The notes under the pieces are model-generated. The model saw nothing but the letters and a program-made list of their open reading frames with translations, did not search any database and was not told where the DNA came from. This document shows, piece by piece, positions 9,395 through 31,806 of a stretch of DNA of 34,195 bases. Location of the stretch: contig NZ_AOME01000064.1 of the NCBI RefSeq assembly GCF_000336935.1, forward strand, positions 1 to 34,195. Direction: 5' to 3'. Both the position numbers and the translations under genes were made by a program. Position 1 is the stretch's first letter. Each line of letters starts with the position of its first letter. This DNA comes from Halococcus salifodinae DSM 8989. Lineage in GTDB: Archaea; Halobacteriota; Halobacteria; Halobacteriales; Halococcaceae.

Positions 9395-11290
9395 TCACCC
9401 ATCGGTTTCGTTGGCCGGTTCGACACGGTAGAGATCGAACTGGCCGTTCGCGTAGGGGTTGGCGATCCCGGGCGTCCTGTTGAGGTAGGCGAAATCACCC
9501 TGTGAGAACTCGACACCACCGTACAGTTGCGTACTCGACTGGCGGTCGACAGCCGTCACTGGAAGGTAGAACGGGTCGTCAGACTGTGTGCGGAGTGCTT
9601 GATCGGCGAAATGGTAGGGGACACGCAAGTAGCGACCGCTGCCGCGTGGATCATCGAGCGATGCTTGTGGAATGTTCGATGCGTTCGAGCCGGCGATGCC
9701 GTCGCGATAACGTTGGATCGGCGATCCGACGCTAGCAAATCCAGTATCGCTCGCGCCGTGTGCGAACGCGAATTCGTAGCCGTCCATCTGCCCCCCGGGG
9801 ACATGATCGGTCTCTTGTGCCACGTATGGCGAACGAAACATCGTGAATGAGGAGGCGATGAGCAATACGACGAAGCCGATGGCAAGAACACTGCGAACGG
9901 GCACCGACGGGAGCCATGTTTCGGCGGCAGCGCGTGCCTCCCAAAGGAATACACCTCCGAAAATTGTTACAAAAACAAGGATGAAGCCGAGATAGCGGAA
10001 ATATTGAATCGGAAGCCCGGCGAGAACGTACAGCCCGGTGAGGATCGAAACGGGCACGAGTCCACAGAGCAGCGAGAGTACGACTGAATATCGGATGTGG
10101 CGTCGCTTCGCTAGTTTCGAAAGGATGGGGACGAAGAGCGCAAGCACGGCGAAGATCCCGTAGACGATCTCAGCAGCGAACGTGCGACGATAGATCGTAC
10201 GGACGGATACGCCGAGCATCTCTAGCGTATTACTACGTGGGATGATTGGCTGTGATGGGTTGTCAAGCAGTTCGGCGACGATGGCGTCGAACGAGTGTGT
10301 CGAAAGAAACGTTCGGAGCTGGGCCGTGGTCTCGACGTCGAACAGCGTCGGGCCGATTTGGGAAACGCCGCGGCCGAACAGCGATTGGGTGCTGAGCCAG
10401 CCCCAGACGACGGCGAGACCGACACCGGCGAGCACGACGAACTGGACGAACAGGCGCGCGATCGCTGTCGGCCCTGAGACTGTCCGCGTCAGCGGCTGGG
10501 CGAAAAACTGTGTGACCAGTACGATCCCGAGCAAGGCTCCGAAAACGAGGCCGTGTTGGGGGTGGAGGACGACGAGAAAAGCGAGGGCAACCACGAGCAG
10601 CGTGCCGAAAGCGAGTCGGCGGTGTCGTCGCGTGTACGCAAGTAACACGAAGGTCACGGTGGGTATGAAAAGGATAGCTTCGCTGGTCGGGATCGGCTGG
10701 AGCACCGGGAGATAGATGACGGCAATCGGGAGCAAGAGAAGCGCTGAGACGACGGCGATCGGGTCGATATGTGTGCGGGCGACGATCAGGCGCACACAGA
10801 GGGGCACGAACAGGACGAAGAGTGCAACGAAGGTCGGGACAGTAACTAAGAGTGACCACGTGAACGGTCTCGTGGTGAGTATGCCCAGAAGGGCAGCGAG
10901 GGTATGCATCCCCGGATAGATGGTGGTGGTGAGATCGACGATTCCGTGAGCGAGATCTTTCGTCGTCCCCAGATGGGACAGTGCATCCTCCGGGCCGAAG
11001 TAATAATAGCCCCGTATGAGCGGCAACGCGGCGAACGCGACGATCGCAAGGCCGGCAAGCCACAGCGCCGTAACGCGGATCGATCGTCGGTCGCTGGCAA
11101 AGGCGAGGACGACCGCGATCGCCAGCGCGACGAACAGCCCGATCCAGAACGCACTCGGCGTGGCCCGATAGATCGAGAGCTCGTAGCCCGTCGCCGGCGT
11201 GAAGTGTGCGGCGAGGGTGGCGATAGCGAGTGCGATCGCTCCCGCCGCAAGCGTACCCTTCGAGAGTCGCAATCGAGTGGTGGCGTTCAT
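9395..11290 (-). CDS. Polytopic membrane protein with outer C-terminal domain, GT-C-like
   Basis: A 631-aa protein with about a dozen hydrophobic segments between residues ~15 and ~520 (for example GTLAAGAIALAIATLAAHF and FWIGLFVALAIAVVLAFA). A soluble C-terminal ~110 residues end PYANGQFDLYRVEP. The loop GYYYFGPEDALSHLGTTKDL after an early membrane segment is acidic and could be the catalytic loop of GT-C-type enzymes that use lipid-linked sugars; this is inference. The ATG at 11290 (MNATTRLRLSKG) was chosen over an upstream GTG-type start because the first membrane segment follows it closely. A related protein lies at 18634-20352. It is divergent from the GT2 gene at 11661. It may be a glycosyltransferase or a polymerase-like protein. 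Confidence 0.7.
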   Translation of the reverse strand: MNATTRLRLSKGTLAAGAIALAIATLAAHFTPATGYELSIYRATPSAFWIGLFVALAIAVVLAFASDRRSIRVTALWLAGLAIVAFAALPLIRGYYYFGPEDALSHLGTTKDLAHGIVDLTTTIYPGMHTLAALLGILTTRPFTWSLLVTVPTFVALFVLFVPLCVRLIVARTHIDPIAVVSALLLLPIAVIYLPVLQPIPTSEAILFIPTVTFVLLAYTRRHRRLAFGTLLVVALAFLVVLHPQHGLVFGALLGIVLVTQFFAQPLTRTVSGPTAIARLFVQFVVLAGVGLAVVWGWLSTQSLFGRGVSQIGPTLFDVETTAQLRTFLSTHSFDAIVAELLDNPSQPIIPRSNTLEMLGVSVRTIYRRTFAAEIVYGIFAVLALFVPILSKLAKRRHIRYSVVLSLLCGLVPVSILTGLYVLAGLPIQYFRYLGFILVFVTIFGGVFLWEARAAAETWLPSVPVRSVLAIGFVVLLIASSFTMFRSPYVAQETDHVPGGQMDGYEFAFAHGASDTGFASVGSPIQRYRDGIAGSNASNIPQASLDDPRGSGRYLRVPYHFADQALRTQSDDPFYLPVTAVDRQSSTQLYGGVEFSQGDFAYLNRTPGIANPYANGQFDLYRVEPANETDG

Positions 11291-13432: not shown

Positions 13433-14869
13433 ATGTCGTATCGCTCGAAACTCTCGACAGACATCATCGTTAGTACGGCAGCGACGCTCTCGATCCGGCT
13501 TCGCGGGTTGATCTTCATCCCGCTGATTAGCGGCGGCCTGAGTGTCACCGCCTTCGGTGCGTACACGCAAGTGTTGGCTGTCGCCCGATTGCTCGAAGTG
13601 CTCGCTGGCGTGCGACTCTACGACGTACTGGTCCGTTACGGACAAGAACGAGACCAAGATGCCAGTGAACTGTTCTACACTCTTTTTACGGTAGTCGTTG
13701 TGAGCAGTGCGTTCGTCGCTGCTTTCATGTTCTCAATCGCACAGCTTCTGTCGCAGTATACCCTGAGTACTGGGGAGTACGCGGCTGCCTATCAGGCGGG
13801 TGCCGTACTAGTGTTGTTACGGGCGGTGTTCCGCATCCAGGTCAGTTATTTCAAAATGAACGGTCGGATCAAGTTCTATTCGATTATCGAAACAGCGAAC
13901 ACTTACGCCATCGTCAGCGGTGTTGCCGCCGCTATTCTCATCTTTTCGAGCGACCTCGCCGGCGTCTTCGATGCCATCATCCTCGGTGATGCACTGACGG
14001 TCGTACTCCTCCAAGGTTTGATCGTCCGAGAGATAGGTGTCGCCACACCTTCCTTCGAGCGAATCGGAGAATACCTCCGATACTCGGTCCCACTAACTAC
14101 CTCGACACTCGCCTCGACGGTTTCCTCCCGCGTCGACCGGTTTCTCATCGGAGCGTTCCTCGGCGCGCAGGCAGTCGGAGTCTATTCCATCGCATATCAG
14201 ATCGCCACAGCCATAATGATATACGTAAAGCCCATCCGGATCACGTTCTTCCCGGAGTTCAGTCAACTCCTCGAGAACGGTAAACTGGATCGATGTTCTC
14301 GCTACCTTCGTCAGGGCGTACGGTACTTCCTGCTCATCTCTTTGCCGACCGTCGGTGGGATGTACCTCATCGGGCCGGACGTGATCGGTATCATCGCGGG
14401 TGAGGGCGCAAACCCTTCCGGTATACTCGTTGCGACCATCGCGCTCGGGGTCGTTGGGCTGGGAGTAGACAACATTTACTGGGTCGTACTGACTGCCGAC
14501 AAGCGGACGCTTCGGGCGACGATCATCCGATGGGTCGGGGCGGTCGCGAACCTCGGCTTGAGTATTCCGCTAGTGTTGGAATTCGGGATCATCGGCGCGG
14601 CAGTCGCTACGCTTGGAACGTACGCGTTGACGGCCGGGTTAATGTACTACTCCTCGGGGAAAGTCTTCGAAACGACATTCGTTACTGGAACCCTGATACG
14701 GACGGCGCTTGCGACGGTGGCGATGGTGGTGCTCACCGGCCTCGTAACGAACTCGCTCGTCTACAGCGTGGTCGTCGGCGCTCTCTCGTATGGAGTCGTC
14801 GTCCTTGCGCTCGGGGAGTTCTCACGGGCGGAACTGCGACAGATCCAGTCATCACTCCCGATGCTTTAG
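13433..14869 (+). CDS. Oligosaccharide flippase, Wzx/AglR type (478 aa)
   Basis: Proteins of this MOP-superfamily group move lipid-linked oligosaccharides across the membrane. The sequence has about 12-14 hydrophobic segments over its full length. The N-terminus, STAATLSIRLRGLIFIPLIS followed by VTAFGAYTQVLAVARLLEV, is typical of the family. The repeat of the fold begins near residue 215 with LRYSVPLTTSTLASTVSSRV then DRFLIGAFLGAQAVGVYSIA, a hallmark of polysaccharide exporters. The length of 478 aa is normal and no break is visible. Its stop codon overlaps the stop codon of the convergent pyruvyl-transferase gene. It is probably the exporter for the glycan made by this cluster. Confidence 0.88.
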   Translation: MSYRSKLSTDIIVSTAATLSIRLRGLIFIPLISGGLSVTAFGAYTQVLAVARLLEVLAGVRLYDVLVRYGQERDQDASELFYTLFTVVVVSSAFVAAFMFSIAQLLSQYTLSTGEYAAAYQAGAVLVLLRAVFRIQVSYFKMNGRIKFYSIIETANTYAIVSGVAAAILIFSSDLAGVFDAIILGDALTVVLLQGLIVREIGVATPSFERIGEYLRYSVPLTTSTLASTVSSRVDRFLIGAFLGAQAVGVYSIAYQIATAIMIYVKPIRITFFPEFSQLLENGKLDRCSRYLRQGVRYFLLISLPTVGGMYLIGPDVIGIIAGEGANPSGILVATIALGVVGLGVDNIYWVVLTADKRTLRATIIRWVGAVANLGLSIPLVLEFGIIGAAVATLGTYALTAGLMYYSSGKVFETTFVTGTLIRTALATVAMVVLTGLVTNSLVYSVVVGALSYGVVVLALGEFSRAELRQIQSSLPML

Positions 14870-27729: not shown

Positions 27730-27984
27730 TCAGCTGTGGGTCGTGGAGTGATCGGTCACTTCATTCTGGCCTTTTTGCGTTATCTCGTACAAGGCAGTCC
27801 CATCATGTATTTTCTCTATATATTCGCCCATATGAAGCGCTTCGAGTCGGCGCTGGATTTGACTGCGCGTGTGCGGTGTTGCGTCAATCAGATACCCTTG
27901 GGTGGCGCGTCCTTCAGCGAGCATTTGTAGGATGGCACGATCAATCCGATTCAGTTCGGCCACGTCTGTTGTACTCGTTGCCAT
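27730..27984 (-). CDS. Small winged-helix regulator (84 aa)
   Basis: A single winged-helix domain fills the protein: LNRIDRAILQMLAEGRATQG, YLIDATPHTRSQIQRRLEAL as the recognition helix region, and YIEKIHDGTALYEITQKGQ as the wing. Such short proteins are common repressors in haloarchaeal viruses and plasmids. The ATG at 27984 has a TATA-like tattaat on the plus strand at 28012-28018, about 30 nt upstream, so it is probably leaderless. The gene is divergent from the operon beginning at 28164 and is the best candidate for its regulator. The 9-nt palindrome-like repeats at 28029-28054 lie between them. Confidence 0.78.
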   Translation of the reverse strand: MATSTTDVAELNRIDRAILQMLAEGRATQGYLIDATPHTRSQIQRRLEALHMGEYIEKIHDGTALYEITQKGQNEVTDHSTTHS

Positions 27985-28028
27985 TCTATTGGCAAATAGG
28001 TGACGCGGTCGTATTAATGTTCATCATT

Positions 28029-28054
28029 GCGTGCAGTATAGCGTGCATAATGCA
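28029..28054. promoter_or_regulatory. Repeat and palindrome in the divergent control region
   Basis: gcgtgca occurs twice (from 28029 and from 28041 with one-base offset in the surrounding sequence), and TGCAT-A-ATGCA (28044-28054) is a perfect 11-nt palindrome. They sit between the winged-helix gene and the rightward operon and could be the binding site of the regulator. Confidence 0.4.
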
Positions 28055-28089
28055 TACATTGAAGTGAGCGGAGAGTATAGACGCAGCTA

Positions 28090-28151
28090 AGAAGCGCGGA
28101 TCGCCTGAAGAAAGTCTTCGGGCCAGCGCTAGGACGCTGACCCGCGCTTCT
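28090..28151 (+). ncRNA. Predicted three-way-junction RNA in the operon leader
   Basis: The outer stem is a perfect 10-bp pairing: AGAAGCGCGG (28090-28099) with CCGCGCTTCT (28142-28151). It encloses two hairpins. CCTGAAG (28104-28110) pairs with CTTCGGG (28116-28122) around a 5-nt loop with one G-U pair. CAGCG (28124-28128) pairs with CGCTG (28135-28139) around a 6-nt loop. The junction strands are 4, 1 and 2 nt. The structure ends 12 nt before the ATG at 28164, right at the ribosome binding site, so it could control translation. The family is unknown; hammerhead core sequences are absent. Confidence 0.55.
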
Positions 28152-28152
28152 C

Positions 28153-28157
28153 AGGAG
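28153..28157 (+). promoter_or_regulatory. Strong Shine-Dalgarno sequence (AGGAG)
   Basis: AGGAG ends 6 nt before the ATG at 28164. Many genes in this window look leaderless, so a good SD here points to a transcript with a 5' leader, consistent with the structured element immediately upstream. Confidence 0.55.
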
Positions 28158-28163
28158 AGAAGC

Positions 28164-28280
28164 ATGTCACAATGCGAACCCGCCGCTATTGAATCCAGCG
28201 GCAGCGACCGACGTATCGATACAATCTCAAACGACGGACTGGCGCTCCAGACGCCATCCAGTCGGAGGGGCAGCCAGTGA
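28164..28280 (+). CDS. Very small ORF (38 aa), first gene of the operon
   Basis: The ORF begins MSQCEPAAIESSGSDRRIDT and ends PSSRRGSQ. It is supported by the SD sequence 6 nt upstream and by its stop codon overlapping the next start codon (GTGA at 28277-28280). The protein is hydrophilic with one Cys and has no recognisable domain. It may be a leader peptide that couples translation of the downstream genes to the RNA structure, or a short protein in its own right. Confidence 0.5.
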   Translation: MSQCEPAAIESSGSDRRIDTISNDGLALQTPSSRRGSQ

Positions 28281-28441
28281 CCCTGCAGTACCACTGCGAT
28301 ACCTACGATCTCACGATCACGAGCCAGTCCTCCGGCGATAGCAGTGCGTTCGAGGCCGACGAGTACCAATGCTGTGAGCGTACCGACCCACTCGTCCACG
28401 AGGAGACGACGGGCACGACGCTGTCGGGGTGTCTACGATGA
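28277..28441 (+). CDS. Small Cys-containing ORF (54 aa)
   Basis: Starting at a GTG that overlaps the previous stop, the ORF reads MTLQYHCDTYDLTITSQSSG and ends LSGCLR. It has four Cys residues, including an adjacent CC (EYQCCERTD), so metal binding is possible but unproven. Its stop overlaps the next start as ATGA. The overlap on both sides supports the ORF being translated. No family is recognised. Confidence 0.5.
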   Translation: MTLQYHCDTYDLTITSQSSGDSSAFEADEYQCCERTDPLVHEETTGTTLSGCLR

Positions 28442-28821
28442 CGGCCCGCAACGCCGACCACGTCATCACGACCATCTCGACCACCCCACAGCAGGCACTG
28501 TCGGGCACGGCGATCGGCACCGGCTCATTCGCGCAGTGTGCATCGTGTCAGTGCTCGACCGGCGAGGGAAGCACCGTCGCACTGCGGGCCCATCGCTTCA
28601 CCGACGAGGCCCGCTGGACCACCACCACGATCCACTGTTCGCGCTGTCTGTCCGAGCACGGCACGATCACTACGCCCACCACGGGTGCATACGAGATCGT
28701 CGTCGCCGGCCGACTGACACTGCGGGGTGACGCCGCGACCCAGAGCCACCGCCTCGTCTTCACCGCCGACGAGGGCCCCGCGGCCGTACTCGATTACAGC
28801 GGCCCCGACGACGGCCGCTGA
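28438..28821 (+). CDS. Small zinc-ribbon-like protein (127 aa)
   Basis: The ATG at 28438 overlaps the previous stop by 4 nt. Two Cys clusters 44 residues apart, FAQCASCQCSTGEG and TTIHCSRCLSEHG, look like the halves of a zinc-binding ribbon. The rest is beta-rich (AYEIVVAGRLTLRGDAATQ and RLVFTADEGPAAVLDYSG). Such small zinc-finger genes are common on haloarchaeal plasmids, where their roles are mostly unknown. The next gene starts 3 nt after its stop, so it belongs to the same operon. Confidence 0.65.
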   Translation: MTARNADHVITTISTTPQQALSGTAIGTGSFAQCASCQCSTGEGSTVALRAHRFTDEARWTTTTIHCSRCLSEHGTITTPTTGAYEIVVAGRLTLRGDAATQSHRLVFTADEGPAAVLDYSGPDDGR

Positions 28822-28824
28822 CCG

Positions 28825-31806
28825 GTGGGCGTCTCGCTCGTCGCGCCCGGCAGGAGCCCCAGCCACCGCTCATCAGCACCGCCCACCGTCCGTTCGGTGG
28901 GACCACGCGCCAGCGAGTGGCTGCCCGACCTGCAGGAGGCGTTGCTCCCGACGGCCGTCCGGACGGTCCGCGAGCTCGCACACGCCTACGATCCACGAAT
29001 CCTGCGCGACGAGCGCCCACGACTGTTCGCCCGCGAAGTACTCCACCAGCAGTACGACGTCGGGACATGGCGCAGTAGCTACCCCGAAGCGATCACGCGA
29101 TACACGCTGCGCTACAGTGACCACGATCCCAACAGGCTCAACGAGCACGAACAGAAAAAGTACGATGCGCTCAAAACCGACCTTACCACCGTCGGCACCG
29201 GCCGGGATGCGGTGAACTCCGGGCTCGACATGGTGGAGGAGACAGTCGTCCCCCTTCTTCAACAAGCCCGTCCCCAGCCCACGGTCGTACTCGTCCTCGA
29301 CGGGCCAGCGTGGACGGCCGTCGCCGATGAGCGCACCGCCGCCCGCGCACTCGATACGATCGCACTATTCAGCGAGGTCTGTGAACTGCACCTCGTCTGT
29401 TCGCCACGCCTCAGACAGCATCTCGACCGCCATCATCCCGAGTGGTGTGACGAGCATCTCGATCTTACTCGCTCACGGGATGGGTGGGGGCAAACAGTCC
29501 CCGGTGCGACGAGCGAACGGACACGCAACGAGGCATGGGCAACGGTCTCTCAGTTCGATCCCGACGGCGGTCGACTCACGATCCTCGAAGCACTGTCGTC
29601 CGACAGCGATCGCACAGTCCGCGAGCTCAAAGCCGACCCGGAACTCGCACTTGCAGACGGCACGATCGATCGGTACGTCCGCGAACTCGCCGACGACCAC
29701 AACCTCGTCGCGATCGACAGCCGGCCGACGTCAAACCACGTCACACTCACCGAAACCGGCACAGCGGCCACAGCGCTGCTCGGGCCTGACGGACGGCCCC
29801 ACCATCCCGATCAATCCCGGTTCGCAAGCGATCGTACGCGCACCCATCACGACCCAACAAGTGTAGTGTGTCGTGCCGACCGTGACGAGGAGTCCCCCAC
29901 CACGACCGACGACAGCACCGCCGCCGACCACACCGACGACACAGCCCCGGCCACTCCTTCCCACTCGTCGTCGGCGTCGGCGGTCCCTGAGAGCGCACCC
30001 ACCGCCGAAGAGTGGCTCGCAGACACCGACAGAGCCGACGAGAACGGCTACGTGCAGTGGCTCGACGGGCCCGACAATCGTCTCGACGCGTGGACCATGC
30101 ACGAACGCCTCCGTGCCGGACAACGCTGTGCGGGCGTCACGGTCGTCGACGATCCGACCCAGCCGTTCGACGACGGCGAAGTGAGCTACATCAGCTGTTT
30201 CGACGATCACGCCCAGGTCGTCGTCCAGTGGGGTGGGGCCCTCCCCACCCTGGTACGGATCACGAGCGCCTTACTCAGCGAGCGGATGTTCGAGACGGTA
30301 CTCACACCAGCCACCGTCGGCGATGATCTCGACGCGCTGTACGATGGCACACTCGACAGTGCAATCGACGACGTCCTTCGCCTCGGCGCACAGGTCGGCT
30401 GGTTCAGCGAGGACGAACACGACTACGAGGGCCTGCGCGAGCGTTACGGTGCGGTCCGTCGCCGGCTCCTCGCACGGCTGAGTACCCTCGATCGCGACGA
30501 CACCGACGCCTGGAACGAACTCTGTCGGGACGCCCACGGCCTGCTCGCATCGGCGACCCAGCTCTACCATGCCAGCGATATCGATCTCACGATCCACATC
30601 CGTGTCCCCGACACCGCCACGCTCCGAGCGGGCACACAGCGCCATCAAGAGTTCTGTGACTTCTTCAAACATACCGTGCCGAAAAACGCCGTCTACGGCG
30701 TCCATTCTGCCTATCGACTGCTGTACGAACAGCGCGTCGATAAGCTCAAACACCGTCTGAGCTACGCGTTCGACGACGACCCGACGGCCGAACTCACCGC
30801 CTCATGGGTGGTCTCCGGGCCGACCGCGACCACGTTCCGTGAGGATATCGAGTCAGCCATCGCAACGAACGCAAGCGACGTTCGCGAGGTCATCCAAAAG
30901 GGCACCAGACGCGGTGTCGGCTTCGAGATTCCGGTCGTCGAGGGCAACAGCTACGCCGCCCTCCGAGGAGTACTCGACCGACAAGCGGATCGGAAGGGGT
31001 TCACCCTCAAACCCGCTGCCCGGCGCAACATCATCCGCCTAGCCACGGCAACACTCGGGACGGAACCGGGGCGCTGTTCGCCGTATGCACTCGCCGAAGC
31101 GTTGCTCGCGATGGCGCGTGCCCACCCGACGGCGACACTTGCGCCCACAGACGTCGCGTATGGGCTCACGCAGCTGCCCGCCGAGCGACTCGTCCCCTCG
31201 CTGCCGCCGACGATGCAGTCGGTCCTCAAGACGCTGCTCGTCGCCGACGACCCGCTCGGGCGGTCGACGATCGCCGCCCGCGCAGGCATCTCTACAGCGT
31301 CCTATGACCGCAACATCGACGAACTGGCGGCACTCGAGATGGTTGAGGCCACGGGCAACGGCGGCCACAGAAAATGGCAGGCGTGGGCCATTCCGTGGTG
31401 GTCGCCGATATCCGAGAGCGACACGCCACGAACGGCCGAAAGTGACGACAACGCGGTCGCCCGGCCGACTCGCTGGGACGATACAATCTATCGAATCGTA
31501 TGCGCCCTCGATTGTGACTACGACGATGAGCTGTTCACCCAGCCGATCGATGTCGACGAGGTGTTTGCGACACTGCCGCGACTGGACCGGTGGCGCGGGT
31601 TCATCGAGGCCCACTACGGCCGAGGCGCAGCCAGCCCGATCGCTGAGACAGACAGCGACAGCAATAGCGATCGCCAGTCAGCAGACGGGCCGATTGACAC
31701 CAATCGCACCGTCGAGATCGGAGCGCGCCCTGAAACGAACAGCCCCAACGGGACACAGCTCACGATCACACACTCCGACGATCCAGGGTCAGTTTCTCCG
31801 CCCTAG
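28825..31806 (+). CDS. Large two-HTH protein of plasmid type (993 aa)
   Basis: The protein starts with a GTG 3 nt after the preceding stop. Residues ~135-220 look like an alpha/beta domain (PTVVLVLDGPAWTAVADER, CELHLVCSPRLRQHLDRHHP). A winged HTH follows at ~245-315 (LTILEALSSDSDRTVREL, then ADGTIDRYVRELADDHNL). A low-complexity Thr/Asp/Ser linker spans ~340-395. The middle (~395-680) has no recognised motif. KGFTLKPAARRNIIRLATAT then looks like an AAA-lid-type helical bundle. A second winged HTH lies at ~790-860 (STIAARAGISTASYDRNIDE). The C-terminus is disordered. It probably binds DNA for a plasmid or integrative element. The function is unknown. No catalytic signature was seen. Confidence 0.75.
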   Translation: MGVSLVAPGRSPSHRSSAPPTVRSVGPRASEWLPDLQEALLPTAVRTVRELAHAYDPRILRDERPRLFAREVLHQQYDVGTWRSSYPEAITRYTLRYSDHDPNRLNEHEQKKYDALKTDLTTVGTGRDAVNSGLDMVEETVVPLLQQARPQPTVVLVLDGPAWTAVADERTAARALDTIALFSEVCELHLVCSPRLRQHLDRHHPEWCDEHLDLTRSRDGWGQTVPGATSERTRNEAWATVSQFDPDGGRLTILEALSSDSDRTVRELKADPELALADGTIDRYVRELADDHNLVAIDSRPTSNHVTLTETGTAATALLGPDGRPHHPDQSRFASDRTRTHHDPTSVVCRADRDEESPTTTDDSTAADHTDDTAPATPSHSSSASAVPESAPTAEEWLADTDRADENGYVQWLDGPDNRLDAWTMHERLRAGQRCAGVTVVDDPTQPFDDGEVSYISCFDDHAQVVVQWGGALPTLVRITSALLSERMFETVLTPATVGDDLDALYDGTLDSAIDDVLRLGAQVGWFSEDEHDYEGLRERYGAVRRRLLARLSTLDRDDTDAWNELCRDAHGLLASATQLYHASDIDLTIHIRVPDTATLRAGTQRHQEFCDFFKHTVPKNAVYGVHSAYRLLYEQRVDKLKHRLSYAFDDDPTAELTASWVVSGPTATTFREDIESAIATNASDVREVIQKGTRRGVGFEIPVVEGNSYAALRGVLDRQADRKGFTLKPAARRNIIRLATATLGTEPGRCSPYALAEALLAMARAHPTATLAPTDVAYGLTQLPAERLVPSLPPTMQSVLKTLLVADDPLGRSTIAARAGISTASYDRNIDELAALEMVEATGNGGHRKWQAWAIPWWSPISESDTPRTAESDDNAVARPTRWDDTIYRIVCALDCDYDDELFTQPIDVDEVFATLPRLDRWRGFIEAHYGRGAASPIAETDSDSNSDRQSADGPIDTNRTVEIGARPETNSPNGTQLTITHSDDPGSVSPP

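Follow-up and report, generated by a model that had tools for sequence, protein, structure and literature searches.

An apparently bistable leader RNA with a predicted antisense partner on haloarchaeal plasmids and viruses

What is a tightly folded RNA doing in front of a run of tiny genes? Haloarchaeal transcripts are mostly leaderless, and scarcely any natural example of a structured regulatory leader is known from these organisms. The question is raised by the window studied here (the whole stretch of DNA analyzed, 34,195 nucleotides from Halococcus salifodinae), in which an initial annotation, made from the letters alone, suspected a riboswitch-like or protein-binding control element. That was right in kind, for the element is a conserved, structured 5′UTR; the evidence, however, favors a bistable leader with a predicted antisense RNA, set in a module resembling the repressor and replication region of halovirus PhiH.

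A three-way junction in front of a start codon

The MFE fold of positions 28090 to 28151 (plus strand) is the compact 62-nt three-way junction that had been seen by eye, with stems P1, P2, and P3 of 10, 9, and 5 bp; only P2 had been miscounted, at 7 bp. The 5′ strand of P1, AGAAGCGCGG, occupies 28090 to 28099, the P2 hairpin 28103 to 28123, the P3 hairpin 28124 to 28139, and the 3′ strand of P1, CCGCGCUUCU, 28142 to 28151. As also first described, the junction ends 12 nt before the ATG at 28164, with the Shine–Dalgarno-like word AGGAG (28153 to 28157) in between. The fold has an energy of −37.3 kcal/mol (z = −3.05), and two of 200 shuffled sequences were equally stable. By itself, the fold is only moderately beyond chance, and we therefore tested the junction by comparison. 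It is this comparative evidence, and not folding alone, that we regard as decisive for the junction being real and conserved.

A family of leaders

A DNA search of 60 related genomes returned three relatives of the leader, one of which (L004, from another family) keeps the architecture while diverging in sequence. Scanning for the pattern GCGCGG-N30..60-CCGCGCTTC-N3..14-GAAGC(ATG) gave matches in about 54 Halobacteria genomes, eight viral contigs, and 57 GTDB contigs, the credible ones among the last being mostly haloarchaeal; the reversed pattern also matches some Halobacteria genomes by chance. Bacterial matches of the degenerate pattern (L048, L055, and L058, for example) have none of the family features and were set aside as chance. 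From 14 of these relatives, the window excluded, we built a covariance model, which finds the junction at 28090 to 28166 with an E-value of 1.4e-9; many seeds came from the pattern, which fixes P1 and GAAGC. At E ≤ 0.01, 109 of 292 haloarchaeal genomes, more than a third of those sampled, hold a relative, and 44 of 77 genera are represented. The model gave no match outside Halobacteria in a 120-genome sample of the phylum, and the Rfam 15 covariance models, followed down to their E-value thresholds, gave no relevant match to the leader. The window’s own genome holds one clear copy. A weak second match there (G000:C13:171042-171113; 22.5 bits, E 0.47) is possibly a diverged copy.

Across 105 aligned hits (103 distinct relatives), pairing is kept in 97.1% of cells, and two-sided changes occur at 14 of the 19 family pairs, in an alignment that leans to the covariance model used to make it. 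Cells with two-sided changes number 191; shuffles give 38.5, and controls with slid partners no more than 27. The covariance search that the initial annotation had proposed thus finds compensatory changes in all three stems, including all five modeled pairs of P2, while 99.8% of family cells in P3 are paired. P2 and P3 vary widely among members yet still pair, G–U pairs are tolerated in P1 and P2, and the P2 and P3 loop sequences are conserved across the family. RNAalifold, run on the raw MAFFT alignment, recovered only the upper part of P1 and a further hairpin, P4, because P2 and P3 vary in length; a hand-set structure was used instead.

The leaders stand before operons of plasmids, viruses, and proviruses. 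Members lie on Halobacterium salinarum plasmids pNRC200 (219,770 to 219,860 in strain NRC-1) and pHS3, on Natrinema pNATPE01, and on the virus Humcor1. Plasmids of Haladaptatus pallidirubidus carry at least four copies (L046, L049, L061, and L089), each followed by a nearly identical 23-aa ORF beginning MTSNT(L/P)(S/A)VEKRIDYQ. The leader apparently belongs to an undescribed RNA family: we found no description of it, or of structure in the PhiH T4 leader, in a literature search that mostly missed subscription papers, among them the original PhiH work, which may remark on T4 structure.

Where the transcript probably begins

When family members are aligned on P1, the DNA upstream carries AA at −35/−34, TATA at −31 to −27, and WW at −12/−11, which reads as a textbook archaeal promoter. 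The window’s predicted copy (28055 to 28079, plus strand) has its BRE/TATA around 28055 to 28065, with a weak TATA (TTGAAGT), and its WW element at 28078 to 28079. A promoter matrix built without the window places the window’s best start within 5 kb at 28090, the first base of P1, and therefore the leader (28090 to 28163) is probably the entire 5′UTR, with the 5′ strand of P1 as the first bases of the mRNA. Two observations had been named in advance as fatal to the original reading, stems without compensatory change among homologues and a transcript starting downstream of 28151; given the compensatory changes and the predicted start at 28090, neither holds. A wider scan (27990 to 28400) shows a stronger minus-strand site at 28009, which probably serves a divergent gene encoding a winged-helix protein. 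We also looked for a universal operator palindrome upstream of the TATA; there is a weak excess at fixed centers, and we make no claim for it.

A second hairpin that competes with the first

What the initial annotation missed is a repeat. The 3′ strand of P1 ends in GCUUC, and a second copy of GAAGC ends 0 to 1 nt before the AUG, where it can pair with that strand to form P4. In the window, P4 spans 28146 to 28163 (GCUUCUC-AGGA-GAGAAGC), abuts the AUG, shares the GCUUCU of P1, and excludes lower P1; in full length, P1 and P4 are mutually exclusive. A P4 of at least 5 bp can form in 101 of 103 relatives; among shuffled leaders, 17% allow one. Covariation also reaches the pairs of P4 outside the shared GCUUC: the first extension pair is standard in 94% of cases (43% expected) and occurs as GC, UA, CG, and AU. 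For the window, the junction and P4 folds come out at −37.3 and −36.6 kcal/mol, a gap of 0.7, and the family mean difference is −0.6 to −1.7 kcal/mol (two runs with different leader boundaries), all computed for 37 °C and 1 M salt rather than 4 M KCl. Of 101 leaders, 47 carry a Shine–Dalgarno-like word within their final 22 nt, where 25 would be expected to; it mostly sits in the P4 loop, as does most of the window’s own. The layout of P1 and P4, as read from sequence, is what one expects of a bistable translational switch.

A signal inside the first gene

Conservation continues beyond the AUG. A nucleotide motif at +25 to +36, in codons 9 to 13 of the first ORF, has its full score in 76 of 101 members, though the proteins differ. 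We dropped a peptide reading because third codon positions are among the most constrained sites, and a long-range helix with the leader because each motif is as complementary to a swapped leader as to its own. Read from the opposite strand, the motif resembles a BRE/TATA. The sense-promoter matrix, run over 130 antisense positions, gives a unique peak at −2/−3 (z 4.4 and 4.2; the next is 2.1), which is the best antisense site in 56% of sequences against 1.5% expected. The peak moves from −2 to −3 when the spacing between hairpin and AUG is one base longer (37 of 45 and 15 of 19 sequences, respectively). These scores mark a relative peak, with a family mean near zero. In the window, the predicted antisense promoter (28162 to 28200, minus strand) has its BRE/TATA in codons 9 to 13 (28189 to 28200) and its start at 28162, the best site in the 130-nt scan, with a value of its own of 1.2 bits. 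RNA begun there, at the edge of P4 and the AUG, is predicted to cover the leader. Codon bias contributes to the motif too, since its C35 and G36 stay at a fixed distance from the AUG in both spacing classes. Codons 2 to 8 of the family’s first ORFs are A/C-rich and nearly free of G at several positions, as if selected to be unstructured.

Neighbors and cargo

The operon behind the window’s leader opens with a micro-ORF of 38 aa (MSQCEPAAIESSGSDRRIDT..., 28164 to 28280, plus strand, as are all its genes), conserved also in two congeneric relatives. ORF 2 (54 aa, 28277 to 28441) starts at the GTG at 28277 in a GTGA overlap, and ORF 3 (127 aa, 28438 to 28821) at the ATG at 28438 in an ATGA overlap. 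These overlaps are real, as first described; what had not been connected to them is the large ORF that follows, a RepH-type plasmid replication protein of 993 aa (28825 to 31806, start GTG at 28825), identified by homology: 55% identity over 97% to the annotated RepH of Halococcus dombrowskii, with matches to phrog_17376 (E 3e-43) and PhiH RepH (E 4e-28). On the other side, the divergent winged-helix protein (84 aa, 27730 to 27984, minus strand) belongs to phrog_2440, like the PhiH repressor RepR, and gives Pfam hits of the HVO_A0261_N/MarR type.

Across the family, a divergent winged-helix gene accompanies 48 of 103 relatives and another small, Pfam-less protein 38, never both, about 100 nt upstream. 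The second group consists of minus-strand proteins of 65 to 95 aa (..ALLTDRERELI..RYQAISRVRRRI..DVEILREHHPDLYEELREVVC), again about 100 nt away (for example, L134, L158, and L052). Downstream, there is no such regularity. RepH was rejected as the general cargo, standing behind only four of 103 leaders within the flanking DNA examined; other leaders precede HNH, SWIM-type, zinc-ribbon, methylase, and RAMP-like genes, and these genes share no common pathway. The idea that the leader is special to tiny ORFs falls, since many different operons stand behind its relatives.

The RAMP-like genes form a three-gene module (287, 246, and 302 aa) behind at least 18 leaders (L182:2676-5178 on the plus strand, L144, L145, L164, L173, L179, L074, and others). 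The module may encode a Cas7/Cas5-like complex, to judge from weak PADLOC matches to Csm3/Cmr3 and from RAMP-like loops rich in glycine; we noticed no Cas10 or Cas6 adjoining the module. Homologues of its first gene, present in 75 of 292 haloarchaeal genomes, form two clades; the leader is found only with the clade of at least 69% identity (about 22 of 40, against 0). AlphaFold models of two of these cargo proteins reached pLDDT values of 41 and 48.

Lessons from PhiH and PhiCh1

Halovirus PhiH, whose transcript starts have been mapped, gave us an untrained check of the promoter matrix. The record places T4 at 9557 (locus position), T1 at 13583, and T(ant) at 13733; the matrix returns 9557/9558 (second to 9476 in that stretch), 13583/13584, and 13732. 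The T4 leader folds from its first base into a family-like junction (−45.1 kcal/mol, z −5.5 by mononucleotide shuffle), and the equivalent leader of PhiCh1 does likewise, with a compensatory A–U to U–A change in P1. The covariance model scores them weakly (PhiH 12.4 bits, E 0.11; PhiCh1 17.8 bits, E 0.0089), each as the best match in its region. Both have the same kind of P2 (..GAAA) and P3 (CUGGUA) loops as the family, and, as predicted in the window, the mapped PhiH start falls on the first base of P1. They differ in having a P1 of 15 to 16 bp and in placing the AUG at a greater distance, beyond additional hairpins. With a divergent winged-helix gene of phrog_2440 on one side and RepH at the end of the operon on the other, the window repeats the arrangement of PhiH repR-T4-RepH.

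In a second PhiH leader, that of T1, the sense start maps to the opening bases of a P1-like stem, and these bases (AGAGCA) recur directly before the AUG; T(ant) is mapped to one base before the AUG, and the family matrix agrees within one base. The T1 leader is longer (151 nt) and has other internal stems, and it is only there that an antisense RNA has been demonstrated. According to reviews (PMC4284463, PMC8707807), the divergent Rep represses T4, and T(ant) renders T1 cleavable, with loss of the ribosome site.

How the leader may work

Sequence comparison supports the family, both folds, their exclusivity, and the promoter signals. We favor, with fair rather than high confidence, the view that the leader is a bistable 5′UTR of an early or replication operon on a plasmid- or virus-like element, controlled together with an antisense RNA; that an overlapping antisense RNA controls it is probable. 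Transcription would start on the first base of P1. In the junction fold, P1-P2-P3, the Shine–Dalgarno and AUG would be accessible, while base pairing would hold the 5′ end of the message; in the P4 fold, the AUG-adjacent GAAGC would capture the 3′ strand of P1, closing the initiation region and freeing the 5′ end. The junction would be the translated, 5′-protected state and P4 the closed one. The second promoter, in codons 9 to 13, would make an antisense RNA from the P4/AUG edge, complementary to the leader, which would pair with it and either shut off the mRNA or mark it for cleavage, as is reported of PhiH T(ant) and T1. The divergent winged-helix protein would control the sense promoter, and a ligand or protein on the conserved P2 and P3 loops could bias the switch. 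In the window, leader and antisense RNA would together set RepH synthesis and hence replication. Counting against this model are Shine–Dalgarno motifs in only about half of the members, RepH behind only four of the 103 leaders in the flanking DNA examined, an antisense score of only 1.2 bits in the window, and the conservation of the loops across the family, which would be expected of a shared ligand or protein more than of antisense RNAs each specific to its own leader.

The leader might instead be an autoregulatory site at which a protein encoded by the operon, or by the divergent gene, traps one fold. A divergent small regulator does accompany it in 86 of 103 loci, and the RAMP-like proteins behind at least 18 leaders are putatively RNA-binding; no protein family is constant, however, and with two unrelated divergent families and many operons around one RNA, we consider this doubtful. 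A true riboswitch, in which a small molecule or ion on the P2 and P3 loops decides whether P1 forms and leaves the AUG open or P4 forms and closes it, and any antisense RNA is absent or incidental, is also unlikely. The anatomy is classic: junction and loops are conserved, and an expression hairpin competes with the junction. As in translational riboswitches with a Shine–Dalgarno-sequestering hairpin, an aptamer-like P1 excludes a hairpin close to the AUG. Unlike those systems, this one has no known ligand, no coherent regulon, and no counterpart in Rfam: RepH, HNH, SWIM-type, zinc-ribbon, methylase, and RAMP-like genes belong to no common pathway, the leader tracks mobile modules with divergent regulators rather than a metabolism, and the signal in codons 9 to 13 is left unexplained.

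Quite improbable as the whole story is a 5′-end stabilizer or processing signal, in which P1 would protect the first bases of the message from 5′ exonuclease and leaderless mRNA would result from P4 or from RNase cleavage at the AUG. The start on the first base of P1 (predicted in the family, mapped in PhiH T4) suits it, but it does not require a near-balanced competing hairpin, covarying extensions, or a Shine–Dalgarno in the loop, and it is compatible with the bistable, antisense-controlled leader as a second effect. A role as DNA, in the form of a cruciform or an iteron serving replication or recombination, is very improbable despite strong inverted repeats on mobile elements and the RepH gene in the window, given promoter spacing locked to the first paired base, G–U pairs in P1 and P2, a P4 anchored to the start codon, and mostly RepH-free downstream regions.

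Bacterial plasmid R1, with CopA/CopT and tap-repA, has an antisense-controlled rep leader of its own. The likeness lies in a structured leader, an overlapping antisense RNA (predicted here), and a short coupled ORF before the replication gene. There is no known homology, the promoters here are archaeal, most operons of the family are not rep operons, and the AUG-proximal repeat makes the haloarchaeal leader itself bistable, unlike that of R1. We are evenly divided over a broader proposal, a general archaeal control cassette in which face-to-face promoters bracket a bistable leader, sense and antisense RNAs start at the two GAAGC repeats, and the whole is shuffled among haloarchaeal plasmids and viruses to stand before cargo as unrelated as replication, nuclease, and RAMP-like modules, an archaeal counterpart of antisense copy-number and immunity control.

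The bistable, antisense-controlled leader would offer a testable mechanism for the control of haloarchaeal plasmid replication, and since members lie on pNRC200 and pHS3 of H. salinarum, a model strain is available for immediate tests. It would also give a structural frame to the PhiH lysis–lysogeny and antisense observations of the 1990s, and the leader could serve as a tag for locating the early operons of haloarchaeal mobile elements. In the PhiCh1 record, an ATG followed by the codon 9 to 13 motif lies at about 34210 (L201:1211), upstream of the annotated start of ORF49 (34480), and the first gene of the T4-equivalent transcript may therefore be missing or misannotated.
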